From assembly GCA_019720975.1 (NCBI GenBank), contig JAGVSJ010000006.1:17971-81970 (forward strand): 64,000 nt of DNA. The letters run 5' to 3'. The translations under genes and the position numbers were made by a program. Each line of letters opens with the position of its first letter. The first letter of the stretch is position 1. The stretch is from Candidatus Sysuiplasma superficiale. Lineage in GTDB: Archaea > Thermoplasmatota > Thermoplasmata > Sysuiplasmatales > Sysuiplasmataceae. Positions 380 to 20,364 of the stretch are shown here, piece after piece. The notes beneath the pieces were generated by a model, which saw only the letters and a program-made list of their open reading frames with translations, was not told where the DNA came from and did not search any database.

Positions 380-1063
380 TCAGCTTTTGGGTTCATTGCA
401 GTTTGGGCACGAGTGCATGAATGCGGGAAATGAAGCGCCGCACTTTTTGCACTTCACCATGTCGGCATGCTGTCTGGATGGACCAGTTGCGGGAGGAACT
501 GTGAACGGCTGTGACTTAACCTGTGACTCGGGCTGCCTTGCCTTTGCCGGCGGCTGGCTCTCCTTCTGCTGCGCCGTCGTATGTGACGGAGGCTGTTCCT
601 GATGCTCGACCGCGCTCTGCGGCATCTGTACACCTGTTGCTCTCAGCTTTACTGCAGAAGCAATCAGAAATATGCCGGGGAGGATACCAAAAAGGATTGA
701 TATGATGCCCCAAATTATCGCCCGCTCCTCCGCAGATGAGAAATGCCCGGTGTCGATGAACGAAGTGACGTGCAGCTTGATGAATGCAACCTCGAGTATA
801 CAAACAAATACCACTGCGATCAGGTAGACGGCAAACCAGAGATAGGAGGTGGAGTAAGAGGCTGCGTTTGGATTCACCAGGACATAACCGGGCGCCGAAT
901 ATTTGAAATAGTAATAGAATGAGATGATCGCAAGAACAACTGCTGCAGGTATCTCAATCAGAGCAACTATCTGCGCCCAGAAGGCGTGACTCCTGGCTTC
1001 TCTGGCAGTAGTCGGCAGCCATGGTGGCGTCTCCTCTGATGTGAAAAAGTTAATCTGGGTCAA
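380..1063 (-). CDS. Three-TM membrane protein with C-terminal zinc ribbon
   Basis: Starts at TTG 1063 behind GGAAGGA. Three hydrophobic segments are clear (around residues 29-50, 70-95 and 113-140), followed by a Pro/Gln/Ser-rich linker and a C-terminal zinc ribbon CKKCGASFPAFMHSCPNC. The architecture places the ribbon on a flexible tether, probably in the cytoplasm. I do not recognise the family and assign no function. A second protein with membrane segments plus a C-terminal zinc ribbon lies at 23586-24614, so this organisation recurs. It is divergent from the nuclease gene at 1194, with 130 nt between them for both promoters. Confidence 0.75.
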   Translation of the reverse strand: MTQINFFTSEETPPWLPTTAREARSHAFWAQIVALIEIPAAVVLAIISFYYYFKYSAPGYVLVNPNAASYSTSYLWFAVYLIAVVFVCILEVAFIKLHVTSFIDTGHFSSAEERAIIWGIISILFGILPGIFLIASAVKLRATGVQMPQSAVEHQEQPPSHTTAQQKESQPPAKARQPESQVKSQPFTVPPATGPSRQHADMVKCKKCGASFPAFMHSCPNCNEPKS

Positions 1064-1193: not shown

Positions 1194-1961
1194 TTGAAAA
1201 GAGAACTGTATTCCGAGATATATTATTCGCTGAGAAGGCCAGAAGACATAAAGCCGATGGCTGAAAAGTTCAAACTGCCCGAAGAACTCATGCTCGTCAT
1301 ATACACTCAGAAGACCGTGCGTTATGCCACCAAGGATTACTACCAGATAGTAGAGATGGGGCCGACACTTCTGAAGCGCTGGAAAGCAGGTGAACCAATG
1401 GTCAGGATAGCGAGACGCCTCAACTTTCCGCCAATACTTCTGGGTCTTATACTAATGGGCCAGAACGGTACAGGGCGGAAGAAGTTCTGGAAGATGGTGC
1501 GGGATCCTGACAGCATTCAGGACAGACGGCTCAGATCTGAGATAGCTGCGATAAGAAAAGCAGACATACTTTACTCACCTGAAGGAGCAGAGGTACAGAA
1601 ACAGAGGGGCATAAAGGGGGAAGAAAGGCTTTCCGAATGGCTGACCAGGCATGGCGTCACGTTCAGGACAGAGAAGGATCTTAGGGGGAAATTCCCCAAG
1701 ACGCCAGATTTTCTCCTCGACAAACCAATCGAATTTGATGGTTACTCCATAAAATGGATAGACTCCAAGGCATCGTTCGGTGACGATATAGAAATAAGGA
1801 AGAACAACAGGAGACAGTTTCACCAGTACGTTAGCCTGTTTGGAAAAGGATTTGTGCTCTACTGGTTCGGTTTTCTCGATGACGTTGCGGTCGATGAAAA
1901 TGTAATGATCGGGGATGCAAGAACGCTTGATCGCCTTTCCAAGGTACTTGATAACAGCTAA
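1194..1961 (+). CDS. CDIN1/C15orf41-like TPD-motif nuclease
   Basis: Starts at TTG 1194, four nucleotides after aaggtga. Residues 1-100 are helical and HTH-like (RIARRLNFPPILLG). The C-terminal half has a PD-(D/E)xK-like core: GIKGEERLSEWL at 139-150, KTPDFLL with the TPD signature at 170-172, and WIDSKAS with candidate catalytic D190 and K192, then a beta-rich end. The TPD signature with an N-terminal HTH-like region matches the archaeal/eukaryotic family that includes human CDIN1 (C15orf41), the Codanin-1 partner mutated in congenital dyserythropoietic anaemia I. A DNA or RNA nuclease role is inferred from the fold. It sits 63 nt upstream of a second PD-(D/E)xK-type gene on the same strand. 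Confidence 0.8.
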   Translation: MKRELYSEIYYSLRRPEDIKPMAEKFKLPEELMLVIYTQKTVRYATKDYYQIVEMGPTLLKRWKAGEPMVRIARRLNFPPILLGLILMGQNGTGRKKFWKMVRDPDSIQDRRLRSEIAAIRKADILYSPEGAEVQKQRGIKGEERLSEWLTRHGVTFRTEKDLRGKFPKTPDFLLDKPIEFDGYSIKWIDSKASFGDDIEIRKNNRRQFHQYVSLFGKGFVLYWFGFLDDVAVDENVMIGDARTLDRLSKVLDNS

Positions 1962-2024: not shown

Positions 2025-3008
2025 ATGCGTTCACGCCCGTTCTCAGCAGGAGAAGTGGAAAAGTACAGCTACTGCCCCCTCAGCTGGTGGCTCTCCGGAC
2101 CTGAAGAGGAGATGACAGAGGAATTCAGCGAAGGAAATGCAGCTCACAGTCGACTCAATACGCAGCTCAGCGAACTGTCCGGCCGGCAGAGGGAAGCGGG
2201 CATATACAGCCGAATGATCATGTATTACGCAATTACCGCGACTGTTCTCGCATTCATCGGAATTTCTGTGCTGAAATTTGACCGGAAGACAGCAATATCC
2301 CGAATACTGCTTCTTCTCGCCATTGTCTGGCTCCTGATGGCAATATCCATCCTGTATCTGTCACAGAGGGAGTTCTACAACACAAAGATTATGACTGAGA
2401 GGGTTGTCCTTTTCCTTGCGATTCTTTCAATGGTTCTGTCCATATTATCTGTAACCATACTTCAGGTCAACGCGTTTCTTGCCATGATCCTTGAGAGTGC
2501 TTCATTGTTATGGCTCATCGGAGCATCCTCCTTCCTATATCTTGACCTCTGGTCTGAGAGAAAGGCGGAAATGCTCGGAAGCAATATCAATGTGAACGGC
2601 AAGATCATCTACATCGGAGATGACAGTCACCCTGTCCTCAGTTCTTCAGATGGCAGCCTGTCGGGGCGTCCTGATTTCATAGTTGAGAGGGATGGCATGC
2701 TCATGCCTGTGGAATTCAAATCGGGGAGAGTTCCATCCGGGCCACTGTTTTCCCATATCATGCAGATTTCCGCATATTGTAGGCTCGTCGAGGACAACTT
2801 CGGTTCCAGGCCGGACTATGGTCTCATATATTATGGCAGGAAGAGCTTCACAGTTGATTTTGATGATGAGGTTGAGAAGCTGCTGAAAACAAAACTGGAG
2901 GAGATGAAACGGAGCTGGGAAACTGGGCAGGCACACAGGAATCACAACCGCCCCGGTAAATGTGCCAGATGCTCCAGGCGGGCAAGGTGTCCTGAGAGGC
3001 TTGCCTGA
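2025..3008 (+). CDS. Membrane-embedded Cas4/RecB-like PD-(D/E)xK exonuclease homologue
   Basis: The ends of this 327-aa protein match the Cas4 pattern: N-terminal Cys17 (YSYCPLSWW), His41 after GNAA, SGRPDFI with D217, EFKSG with E230 and K232, QISAY with Q247 and Y251, and a terminal CARCSRRARCP cluster (C313, C316, C322). With Cys17 these give the four cysteines that bind an iron-sulfur cluster in Cas4/AddB-type nucleases. About 110 residues with four strongly hydrophobic helices (about 65-83, 91-113, 126-148, 150-175) are inserted between the His motif and the nuclease core. The ATG start at 2025 has an AT-rich cgtttttatcc upstream and no ribosome binding site, so it may be leaderless. No CRISPR array or cas gene is nearby. 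Role inferred: a membrane-tethered exonuclease. Confidence 0.8.
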   Translation: MRSRPFSAGEVEKYSYCPLSWWLSGPEEEMTEEFSEGNAAHSRLNTQLSELSGRQREAGIYSRMIMYYAITATVLAFIGISVLKFDRKTAISRILLLLAIVWLLMAISILYLSQREFYNTKIMTERVVLFLAILSMVLSILSVTILQVNAFLAMILESASLLWLIGASSFLYLDLWSERKAEMLGSNINVNGKIIYIGDDSHPVLSSSDGSLSGRPDFIVERDGMLMPVEFKSGRVPSGPLFSHIMQISAYCRLVEDNFGSRPDYGLIYYGRKSFTVDFDDEVEKLLKTKLEEMKRSWETGQAHRNHNRPGKCARCSRRARCPERLA

Positions 3009-3010
3009 TC

Positions 3011-3316
3011 CTACTTCTTCATCATCTTCTCAATGGATCTCTGTATTTCGTTGATCTGTTCCTTCATAGAGAGCATTTCAAGCTCGAATGGAGTGAAATC
3101 TCCCCTTTCGAGGAGGCGGTGAGCAATTGTTATTCCAAGGAATATTGCACCTATTACGGCAAGAATAGCGATTGTTACGAGCGAGAAGACAAATAGATAG
3201 AAATTGGCAGCAATCGATGATACTCTGACCAGGCCGGTAAACTGAAGGAACTCGAATATTACCAGTATTGCGATCACCGACATCCAGATTGCTGTCATGA
3301 ATGATATCCTAGGCAT
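3011..3316 (-). CDS. Small two-TM protein with C-terminal coiled coil
   Basis: The ORF track begins at 3364, but ATG 3316 is preferred: it follows GGAGGGAAGGAGCG and overlaps the stop of the upstream gene (TAG 3309-3311), which indicates translational coupling. The 102-aa product has two hydrophobic helices (about 5-25 and 35-65) and ends in a charged helix, ELEMLSMKEQINEIQRSIEK, likely a coiled coil on the cytoplasmic side. Family not recognised. It probably works with the exported protein encoded just upstream. It is convergent with the Cas4-like gene with a gap of only 2 nt. Confidence 0.65.
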   Translation of the reverse strand: MPRISFMTAIWMSVIAILVIFEFLQFTGLVRVSSIAANFYLFVFSLVTIAILAVIGAIFLGITIAHRLLERGDFTPFELEMLSMKEQINEIQRSIEKMMKK

Positions 3317-3800
3317 CGCTCCTTCCCTCCATTGAACTGACATACGGTGTCTGACCAAGTACAATCACATGGAGGCCGTTGCGGGGGATATACTTGACGA
3401 GTGTGCTGCCTGAGGCTGACTCGTTCACAGTAACAGTGGCATTGAAGTAGTAAATGCGACTCGCTGAAAGGTCCAGAGCACTCGAAGTCATATTCAGATG
3501 TTCCGTATGTAACTCGAATCCAAGATAGTAGACATTGTTCCCGTATTTCGAATACTGAAACATCACGCCACTGGCATTCCAGTATGTCACACTGACTGTT
3601 ATGTTCCTGTAAAGATAGGGACCGAGTGCGCCATGTATGAGGAGTGTGATATTGCCGCCATAGTACGCGAGCATCACCGAAGGATAACCCGGATAGCTGC
3701 TCGCCTGCCTAACAGACATTGATGCTGCAGTGTAGATATTGACAGCCACCAGCACAATTACGATGAAAAATATCAGAAAATTTCTGAATCTTCCTGACAT
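3309..3800 (-). CDS. Membrane-anchored extracytoplasmic protein
   Basis: Start set at ATG 3800 (MSGRFRNFL), preceded by GGCAGGTGGCGG, rather than the longer ORF in the track. The roughly 163-aa product has one N-terminal hydrophobic helix (IFFIVIVLVAVNIYTAA), serving as signal or anchor, followed by a beta-rich Ser/Thr/Tyr/Asn-rich domain with several N-x-S/T sites. No enzymatic motif is visible. It is coupled to the downstream two-TM coiled-coil protein. Function unknown. Confidence 0.65.
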   Translation of the reverse strand: MSGRFRNFLIFFIVIVLVAVNIYTAASMSVRQASSYPGYPSVMLAYYGGNITLLIHGALGPYLYRNITVSVTYWNASGVMFQYSKYGNNVYYLGFELHTEHLNMTSSALDLSASRIYYFNATVTVNESASGSTLVKYIPRNGLHVIVLGQTPYVSSMEGRSDA

Positions 3801-3914
3801 GATAACCGCCACCTGCCGTGCATGAACCTTACACCGAAGGTCTTTCCCTGCATTCATTCTGTAAGGAGCACATGGATGGCATATACAATAAAGCTATATT
3901 CGATCTACCATGCC

Positions 3915-4136
3915 CTAAAAATCGAAATCTTCACCGTTCTCTTCGTTGTATGCGCCGTAGATCCGCCTATTCATCAGAGCGGTTATTTCGGGAGTTTTCA
4001 GCTGGAAAAGATCGCACTGGTAATGTGGCCCCACATTTTTCTTCCTAGCTATGCAGTATCCCATGAGCTCGCCCGGATTCCCCTCAGGCCTGTGATCCCA
4101 GTTTATGCACTTGACACACAGATTTGTTTTTTCCAT
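3915..4136 (-). CDS. Small four-cysteine protein (putative metal-binding)
   Basis: A 73-aa ORF with CVKCINWDH, GYCIARKK and YQCDLF: four cysteines in a CxxC-x(n)-C-x(n)-C arrangement that could bind zinc or an iron-sulfur cluster. The tail is acidic and ends NGEDFDF. The ATG is placed 25 nt after a TATA element and has no ribosome binding site, consistent with a leaderless mRNA. Family not recognised. Confidence 0.55.
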   Translation of the reverse strand: MEKTNLCVKCINWDHRPEGNPGELMGYCIARKKNVGPHYQCDLFQLKTPEITALMNRRIYGAYNEENGEDFDF

Positions 4137-18389: not shown

Positions 18390-19259
18390 ATGCCAAAAAG
18401 AACCATCGGAGAACTTGAAAAGGCTGAGGAAAAATATTCTGCTCTGGTCGAAAAGAGAGACAAGCTCAACAGTGATGCTGCTGAGATCAGAAAAGTGCGC
18501 GATATGCTGAACGATCAGAAGAAGAAACTCTTTGATGAGGTTCTGTCCATCAAAAAACTGAAGGACGAAAAGGCCTCTGAGATGCGTTCCCATAAGCAGA
18601 AGAGAAATGAACTCAACGCAAGGGCAAAGGAACTTATTCAGCTGAAGAGACAACTGTACAGGAGTGCGCCTGACAATGATATATACCGCGAGATTGAGAG
18701 GCTGAACAGAGAGTTCGAATACCTTGAGAGAAGACAGCAGACTGAAGCTCTCACCATACAGGAAGAGAATGAGGTCATACAGAAGATGAGAAACAACCTT
18801 TCGGAGAGGACAAGACTCATGTCAATATCCTCAAAGGGAGAGGAGATCGCAGGCAAACTCACTGATATCAATTCACAGATTGACAGCATATTCATGGAGG
18901 CGAGAAGGGAGCATGAGGCAGTCACGTCACTCTATGCCGAAGTGCAGGCGCTCGGCGAACAGATGTCAGTCAAATTGAATGAGGCGTCAATACTTGTTAG
19001 CGAATCAAACAGGAAACACAAGGAATATATTGAAAAGAAGGAGGAGGCCGACAGATGCCATGCGGAGGCAATGGAGATGCGCTCATTCATACTTGAAAGA
19101 AGGAAGGAGAGAAGGGAGAAGGCGATCGAAGGCCGGAAAGCAATCCACGAGCAGAACTTGAATGTCAGGAAAACGCTTTTTGACGAAAAGGCAAGCGAGG
19201 AGGAAGCTGACAGACAGTTACAGGAACTGCTCAAGAGGGGAAAGATCAGCCTGAGGTGA
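18390..19259 (+). CDS. COG1340-type archaeal coiled-coil protein
   Basis: 289 aa, almost entirely heptad-like charged helix rich in Glu, Lys, Arg and Leu (for example LNDQKKKLFDEVLSIKKLKD), with no membrane segment or catalytic motif. Length and composition match the conserved archaeal coiled-coil family COG1340, whose role is unknown. The TGA stop lies within the ribosome binding site GAGGTGAT of the following nucleotidyltransferase gene, so the two are probably translated from one mRNA. Confidence 0.82.
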   Translation: MPKRTIGELEKAEEKYSALVEKRDKLNSDAAEIRKVRDMLNDQKKKLFDEVLSIKKLKDEKASEMRSHKQKRNELNARAKELIQLKRQLYRSAPDNDIYREIERLNREFEYLERRQQTEALTIQEENEVIQKMRNNLSERTRLMSISSKGEEIAGKLTDINSQIDSIFMEARREHEAVTSLYAEVQALGEQMSVKLNEASILVSESNRKHKEYIEKKEEADRCHAEAMEMRSFILERRKERREKAIEGRKAIHEQNLNVRKTLFDEKASEEEADRQLQELLKRGKISLR

Positions 19260-19263
19260 TATC

Positions 19264-20364
19264 ATAAAGGCGGTTGTACTGGCCGGCGGCGAAGGCACGC
19301 GGCTCCGGCCACTTACTGAAAACATACCAAAACCACTCATACCTGTTGCAGGTAGACCGTGTGTTGAATATGCTTTGCGATCACTTGTGAAGGGCGGATT
19401 TGAGTCAATAATAGTAACAACCGGCTATCTGTCTGATAAGCTCATCAGAAGGGTGTCGGACGGAAGGCATGTCGGTGCTTCGGTTGTATACTCCTTCGAG
19501 CCGGAACCGGCCGGAACTGCAGGAGCGGTGAAGGCCGTTTCATCGTTCCTTGACTCCCCTGTAGTTATAATGAGCGGAGATACGCTCATGGATGTTGATA
19601 TTGCGGCAATATACAGGGACCATATTCGCAGCGGAGCGGCCGTGACCATGGCTGTCACTGCTGTGCAAGATCCTTCAGAGTTTGGTGTCGTTGAGCCGGA
19701 TAGCGACGGATTTGTCCGGAGATTTCAGGAAAAGCCGAGAAGGGAGGAGGCTTTTTCAAACCTCGTAAATGCCGGCGTGTATGTAATAAATCGGGAAGTA
19801 ATCGACATCATCCCTTCTCAGACGCAGTACGATTTTGCTAAGCAGCTCTTTCCGCTTTTACTTCAGAAGGGGATGAAGATAAAAACTCACAGGATAGAGG
19901 GGATATGGCTCGATATAGGCAGGCCACAGGATCTCCACCTGGCAAATCTGGCAATAGTGGATGCTGAGGGAAAGGTGCAGGAGCTTCCCGGTTGCACTGT
20001 GTCCGGAAAGATGATAATGCTGCAGAGACCCGTGTACGGCAACGATGTGGAGTTCAGAGGAAGGTGTTACATAGGGAGGGATGTGAAGCTCGAAGACAGG
20101 AACACCATCATCAACTCATGCCTCTACGACGGCGTTCATATAGGTTCGGAGACGAGAATTGCTGAAAGCATGCTTCTGGAAGATTCAAGGGTAGGGAAAA
20201 ACTGTGACATTGTTGAAACAATCCTTTCGCCAAATTGCAGGGTTGGTGACAACGTCCGCCTTGAAAAATCGGTGATTGGGGAAGGTGTTTTCATCAAGGC
20301 GAATTCGAGTCTGATCGGAGCAAATATATCCCCGCAGCCCAGGGCACACAGGAGTGAACATTAG
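19264..20364 (+). CDS. Sugar-1-phosphate nucleotidyltransferase with left-handed beta-helix; apparent AUA start
   Basis: The track begins at TTG 19375, but that removes the catalytic loop. The open frame upstream encodes IKAVVLAGGEGTRLRPLTEN and KPLIPVAGRP, the signature of glucose/mannose-1-phosphate nucleotidyltransferases. No ATG, GTG or TTG lies between the in-frame stop at 19252-19254 and this motif. The family starts MKAVVLAGG, which corresponds to ATA at 19264, three nucleotides after a perfect GAGGTGAT. Further motifs: EPAGTAGAV, SGDTLMDVD (metal site), EKPRREEAFSNLVNAGVYV, and a hexapeptide-repeat C-terminal domain from about residue 245 (VEFRGRCYIGRDVKLED). It should activate a sugar for glycan synthesis. 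A sequencing error turning ATG into ATA is the main alternative. Confidence 0.88.
   Translation: MKAVVLAGGEGTRLRPLTENIPKPLIPVAGRPCVEYALRSLVKGGFESIIVTTGYLSDKLIRRVSDGRHVGASVVYSFEPEPAGTAGAVKAVSSFLDSPVVIMSGDTLMDVDIAAIYRDHIRSGAAVTMAVTAVQDPSEFGVVEPDSDGFVRRFQEKPRREEAFSNLVNAGVYVINREVIDIIPSQTQYDFAKQLFPLLLQKGMKIKTHRIEGIWLDIGRPQDLHLANLAIVDAEGKVQELPGCTVSGKMIMLQRPVYGNDVEFRGRCYIGRDVKLEDRNTIINSCLYDGVHIGSETRIAESMLLEDSRVGKNCDIVETILSPNCRVGDNVRLEKSVIGEGVFIKANSSLIGANISPQPRAHRSEH

Follow-up and report, generated by a model that had tools for sequence, protein, structure and literature searches.

A Cas4-type nuclease family of Thermoplasmatota with a predicted membrane insert and a possible role in chromosome upkeep

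What could a nuclease of the Cas4 kind do at a membrane and outside CRISPR? The question is raised by a 327-amino-acid protein encoded in the window—by which we mean the whole 64,000-nucleotide stretch of the archaeon Candidatus Sysuiplasma superficiale that was analyzed—whose nuclease fold is interrupted by four hydrophobic helices. Our answer is that the protein is probably a housekeeping enzyme acting on DNA at the cell membrane, in a family that occurs both as one fused chain and as two separately encoded halves.

A Cas4-type fold interrupted by a hairpin repeat

The gene has the following parts.

2025..3008, plus strand: fused four-helix Cas4-like nuclease, predicted membrane protein of 327 aa with an ATG start (Pfam, orthologues, AF2, and Foldseek)
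2025..2195, plus strand: N-terminal part of the nuclease fold, with SAGEVEKYSYC (C17) and GNAAH (H41), running into helix 1 (orthologue conservation)
2196..2378, plus strand: helical hairpin repeat 1, TM1-TM2, residues 58-118 (hydropathy; hhalign against repeat 2)
2382..2570, plus strand: helical hairpin repeat 2, TM3-TM4, residues 120-182 (hydropathy; hhalign; hairpin profile)
2592..3005, plus strand: C-terminal nuclease core, with GRPD (D217), EFK (E230, K232), QxxxY (Q247, Y251), and C313-x2-C316-x5-C322 (Pfam, orthologues, Foldseek)

The window gene encodes a Cas4-like PD-(D/E)XK nuclease. Residues 210-323 match PDDEXK_1 (PF12705) at 45.9 bits against a curated Pfam cut-off of 22 (E = 9e-12), and D217, E230, and K232 of this superfamily are in place. 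Cas_Cas4 (PF01930) is likewise matched above its cut-off (30 bits against 22.7; E = 6e-7), and the NCBIfam model TIGR00372 (cas4) gives 62 bits, just under a cut-off of 65. Because many members exceed the latter, automatic annotation may label the family as CRISPR-associated Cas4 and thereby hide it. The active-site residues of Cas4 (motif-I His, D, E, K, and Q..Y) are all present, as is its four-cysteine layout, with one N-terminal (C17) and three C-terminal residues (C313, C316, and C322) to hold a predicted [4Fe-4S] cluster. Across 30 orthologues, C17, H41, D217, K232, Q247, Y251, C313, C316, and C322 are invariant and position 230 is E or D; in the N-terminal part, the invariant set is S7, A8, E12, Y16, C17, P18, W21, G37, and H41. 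A preliminary description of this DNA had named the four Cys, GRPD, EFK, and Q..Y as Cas4 landmarks; its claim stands, with the landmarks and the catalytic D/E/K residues retained among homologues (E230 as E/D). Judged from its sequence, the protein is probably an active nuclease and probably carries a [4Fe-4S] cluster.

Alternatively, the protein could be catalytically idle, its fold acting as a membrane adaptor with a structural or DNA-binding task. Precedents exist in a viral nucleocapsid with an inactivated Cas4-like protein, cited in PMC5704561, and in the neighboring family of human CDIN1 (C15ORF41), a predicted PD-(D/E)XK nuclease that was inactive in its authors' tests (PMC7261414). 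Against this, D/E/K, Q, Y, H, and the four Cys are kept phylum-wide, in fused and split proteins and with few exceptions, and we consider an idle protein very improbable.

Four hydrophobic helices (residues ~64-172; by hydropathy ~65-83, 94-112, 127-145, and 150-168) lie between the part that carries C17 and H41 and the part that carries D217/E230/K232 and C313/C316/C322. Cas4 is normally a compact, soluble protein in which motif I lies close to GxxD, whereas here H41 and D217 are 176 residues apart, the four helices included. An AF2 model with 30 orthologues (mean pLDDT 83.8, but 66-74 around the C-terminal cysteines) has long helices at 32-81, 88-113, 118-144, and 150-188. The mean number of K+R per sequence is 3.5 in the N-flank, 1.0 in loop 1, 3.9 in loop 2, 0.3 in loop 3, and 3.8 in the C-flank, a charge pattern that fits cytoplasmic N and C termini. 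Taken with hydropathy and the model, this bias indicates that the nuclease is very probably embedded in the membrane, and we have little doubt about the architecture as such, which is strongly supported. Because the orthologues share it, a chance origin is excluded; a random hydrophobic stretch or a frameshift artifact is ruled out by 172 relatives in named genomes and by stop-free orthologues. That four membrane helices split a Cas4-like fold had been proposed in the preliminary description, and hydropathy, the AF2 model, and the orthologues agree on the split, with insertion into the membrane predicted. The proposal that they part an iron-sulfur N terminus from the nuclease core needs amending: C17 does precede the insert, but so does the motif-I residue H41, so that not only the Fe-S site but also the active site is divided by the insert. 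As a family, these proteins show a putative metal/Fe-S active site parted by a membrane bundle whose number of repeats varies.

Within the insert, a single helical hairpin is repeated in tandem. Repeats 1 and 2 align with an hhalign probability of 99.0 (E = 7.8e-18) and a score of 80.0, against scores of at most 16.9 for 30 column shuffles and probabilities of 1.9% and 3.0% for reversed profiles. Relatives carry one, two, or four hairpins. By hydropathy, 99 sequences have four helices in 87 cases, eight in four, and two in three, the remainder being three helices in three sequences and five in one, which we read as threshold cases, and one short fragment; the L154 protein, counted with three helices by hydropathy, has one hairpin by profile and was placed with the two-helix forms. 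The eight-helix forms are L141, L142, L143, and L149, and the hairpin profile finds four copies in three of these four proteins; on the tree these forms require four changes, so the added hairpins may have had more than one origin. For the two-helix variant L153, a model (mean pLDDT 85.8) matches the Cas4 structure 8d3l_J with a TM-score of 0.60 (normalized by target length; 274 alignment columns). An ORF near the nuclease gene of L099 has a weak hairpin match (E = 9e-4).

Variation in hairpin number (one, two, or four) alongside a conserved nuclease is what one might see if the bundle were a membrane-embedded sensor, reading a membrane or redox signal and gating the nuclease or its Fe-S cluster, so that the helices would be regulatory and more than an anchor. 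Within the helices, G79, W102, and W163 are invariant in 30 orthologues, and in the AF2 model long helices pass from the membrane directly into the catalytic half. Yet the split forms described below have one helix per subunit, which is sufficient for anchoring, and no ligand-binding residues were recognized in the protein; we regard a sensor as unlikely.

Distribution and split relatives

The nuclease family is widespread in Thermoplasmatota and spans several classes. The fused form occurs in 40 of 60 related genomes (37 full-length matches and three longer forms matched in pieces, as read from the match table, with three contig-cut fragments standing outside the count). A profile search matched 252 of 390 Thermoplasmatota genomes, some of these matches being soluble Cas4 proteins. 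Of the 172 relatives in named genomes, which were retrieved with an alignment query where a single-sequence scan gave none, the 80 kept are titled Thermoplasmata, Methanomassiliicoccales, DHVE2, Aciduliprofundum, or Euryarchaeota MAGs. Other phyla are still possible carriers, because the search patterns were specific to this nuclease family. The viral contigs searched yielded no confirmed relatives and the plasmid search no full-length ones, with partial matches to the nuclease core only, which rules out a mobile-element or virus gene. Soluble Cas4-like proteins of ~265-311 aa with another Cys pattern (LTPHDLVxYFRCP...) were also seen in family f9 (L198, L202, L203, and L204).

Twenty-one loci in families f1 (a paralogue), f9, f17, and f42 encode the nuclease as two adjacent same-strand genes, A and B, and the point at which A and B are split is the place of the membrane insert in the fused form. 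A (~80-130 aa) has Y/F-C, GxxxH, and a C-terminal helix; B (~150-200 aa) has an N-terminal helix followed by GxPD, ExK, Q..Y, and CxxC-x5-C. Most pairs overlap, and five lie end to end, 1 to 27 nt apart, when each gene is read from its first start codon; the true starts may differ. The Cys of A is kept in 21 of 21 sequences and GxxxH in 20, the exception being L194, which has Q; by inspection, all 21 B sequences keep GxPD, ExK, Q..Y, and CxxC-x5-C, with three ExK motifs reading PIEVK, PIELK, and PIEYK. In L217, the PDDEXK_1 profile is itself divided, A matching positions 2-47 (under the cut-off) and B positions 118-247. In f1 and f9, Cas4-like proteins with a single helix might be taken for degenerate forms without the N-terminal Cys, but the adjacent gene encodes the missing part, and we dropped that reading. 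The window's own genome also has a split A-B paralogue (G000:C9, ~18964-19814, minus strand; L191).

In a tree built from trimmed sequences without the helices, a starred branch (99/97) separates the fused forms from the rest, and another (97/93) unites them with the split forms of f17 and f42. The split forms of f9 and f1 fall outside with weak support, and a grouping of all membrane forms is not rejected (p-AU = 0.449). This suggests, with weak deep support, that the split form came first and was followed by fusion and hairpin duplication.

CRISPR, known nucleases, and neighboring genes

The nuclease shows no positive link to CRISPR. Cas1 was not found in its own genome (95% complete), the window holds no CRISPR-like direct repeat array, and of the genomes that carry the fused form 9 of 40 have Cas1, compared to 8 of 20 of those without it. 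Together these results rule out a CRISPR adaptation gene, and they agree with the earlier remark that no CRISPR is nearby; neither cas1/cas2 nor a CRISPR locus, which mark CRISPR-associated Cas4 (CAS-Cas4), lies alongside the gene.

Among known proteins, Cas4 (TIGR00372/PF01930, CRISPR-associated and solo) shares with the window family the PD-(D/E)XK core, the motif-I His, and the four Cys in equal order, and differs in that the family has two to eight membrane helices, or a split, between motif I and GRPD, and that the window nuclease is without a cas1/cas2 partner. The best PDB fold matches of the AF2 model by Foldseek are type I-C Cas4 (8d3q/8d3l), human MGME1, Cas4-Cas1, and Dna2. The nuclease domains of MGME1, Dna2, and AddB/AdnAB have the fold in common with the window nuclease, but the matched entries are not described with an inserted membrane bundle, and the window gene is without a helicase domain. 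A survey (PMC5704561) divides Cas4 into CAS, MGE, and solo forms. With the solo forms the family shares its non-CRISPR location and mainly vertical inheritance in archaea; the survey's main text, from which the word transmembrane is absent, mentions no form with membrane helices like those of the window family. We found no literature on membrane or split Cas4 among open-licence papers, a scope within which absence is no proof.

Three further genes flank the nuclease gene in the window.

1194..1961, plus strand: TPD/CDIN1-like PD-(D/E)XK protein (PF14811, E = 1.6e-40), 63 nt upstream of the nuclease gene
3011..3364, minus strand: convergent small membrane protein, 2 nt from the nuclease stop
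3309..3857, minus strand: partner gene of the small membrane protein, with one N-terminal hydrophobic helix and a probably exported domain; no Pfam match

In 35 of 101 loci, spread over at least six families, the gene immediately before the nuclease gene is a codirectional TPD (PF14811) gene. The TPD protein has no match in the PDB; like the window nuclease it is a predicted PD-(D/E)XK protein, but CDIN1/TPD is a separate protein and family, at most a partner and not a homologous subunit. Through the neighboring TPD gene, archaea give a way to approach the activity of CDIN1, which is implicated in human disease. The small membrane protein adjoins the nuclease gene in 31 of 101 loci, one of them from another class, and has two hydrophobic stretches, a C-terminal heptad-like stretch, and a conserved FTPFEEEML; by the hairpin profile it is unrelated to the repeat and is not a further hairpin copy. 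Two other minus-strand genes recur: a membrane protein with a C-terminal zinc-ribbon-like motif (window 380-1063), near the nuclease gene in 28 loci, and a 73-aa protein with several Cys (window 3915-4136), conserved in 29 loci and without a Pfam match.

In f17, 6 of 6 loci have the gene order smc, a kleisin-like gene (~257 aa), A, B, and TyrRS, and a flap-endonuclease gene is close by. With three more smc-A-B loci, smc and the kleisin-like gene precede A-B in all nine f17 loci where A-B was found, from nine genomes and eight genera (L239-L243, L249, L250, L251, and L254). The smc, TyrRS, and flap-endonuclease genes were identified by Pfam in L239 and by similarity in the other loci; the kleisin-like label of the 257-aa protein, on which Pfam is silent, comes from position and look only. 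A-B beside smc is absent in three other f17 genera and in the f1, f6, f9, f13, and f20 genomes examined. For non-CRISPR Cas4, which is without a settled function, a conserved, naturally split membrane form near smc is a concrete place to test nucleases of the solo-Cas4 type.

Chromosome upkeep or envelope DNA

We see about as much reason for belief as for doubt in the explanation that, taken whole, fits these data best: a cytoplasm-facing, membrane-embedded nuclease for chromosome upkeep outside CRISPR. A Cas4-like nuclease, probably with a [4Fe-4S] cluster, would have its fold broken always at the same position, after H41 and before the GRPD strand, and copies of the repeated two-helix hairpin, hence membrane helices in even number, would fill the break. 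An even count would leave both halves of the fold in the cytoplasm, C17 and H41 on the N-terminal one and D217, E230, K232, and three Cys on the C-terminal one, and there they would jointly form a single active site and a single Fe-S site at the membrane face. In the split relatives, two single-pass proteins would need to pair in the membrane, and we lean toward A and B doing so. The nuclease most likely would trim or cut single-stranded or branched DNA at the membrane in chromosome replication, segregation, or repair, beside a CDIN1-like nuclease or SMC-kleisin in some lineages. This role in chromosome upkeep, to which we give slightly less than even credence, is indicated because the commonest codirectional neighbors are the CDIN1-like gene and, for the split form, smc and the kleisin-like gene; no single pathway emerges, because neighbors vary, smc being confined to one family, TPD to roughly a third of the loci, and a secreted LTD-PLD-PKD protein to 13. 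Against it, genes can be inherited side by side without working together, and the gene for the small membrane protein is convergent and not cotranscribed with that of the nuclease. More tentatively, the family might form a phylum-wide system in which a Cas4-type site and an Fe-S cluster are completed between membrane-anchored halves—two single-pass proteins, later fused with one, two, or four hairpins—and which couples the work of condensin (SMC-kleisin) or of a CDIN1-like nuclease to the membrane.

The preliminary description had instead suggested that the enzyme acts on incoming or exported DNA, a role that our evidence does not support: the gene is found in two-thirds of the related genomes and in several classes, our searches gave no relatives on viral contigs and no full-length copies on plasmids, and its neighbors point to chromosome upkeep. 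A related possibility is that the nuclease guards the envelope, degrading or processing virus, plasmid, or free DNA as it enters at the inner membrane face, perhaps together with DNA-handling surface proteins. A membrane location would suit such a role, solo Cas4 has been proposed to act in uncharacterized defense or repair (PMC5704561), and a secreted LTD-2xPLD-PKD protein is encoded directly upstream of the fused gene, often overlapping it, in 13 loci. The broad, vertical-looking distribution and the lack of viral and full-length plasmid relatives speak against it, as do the facts that no uptake machinery was noticed adjoining the nuclease gene and that a search of the window's own genome gave no LTD-PLD protein, a weak negative given a distant query. 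We therefore rate a guard function as rather unlikely, and prefer the chromosome-directed enzyme; an envelope or extracellular DNA role stays open through the 13 loci with the secreted protein. These are L109 (5344-7983), L062, L069, L070, L083-L086, L089, L091, L094, L095, and L098, its domains having been checked in two of them and in a relative in L158. The latter is a fourteenth case, in which the LTD-PLD gene lies ~1 kb downstream of the nuclease gene.
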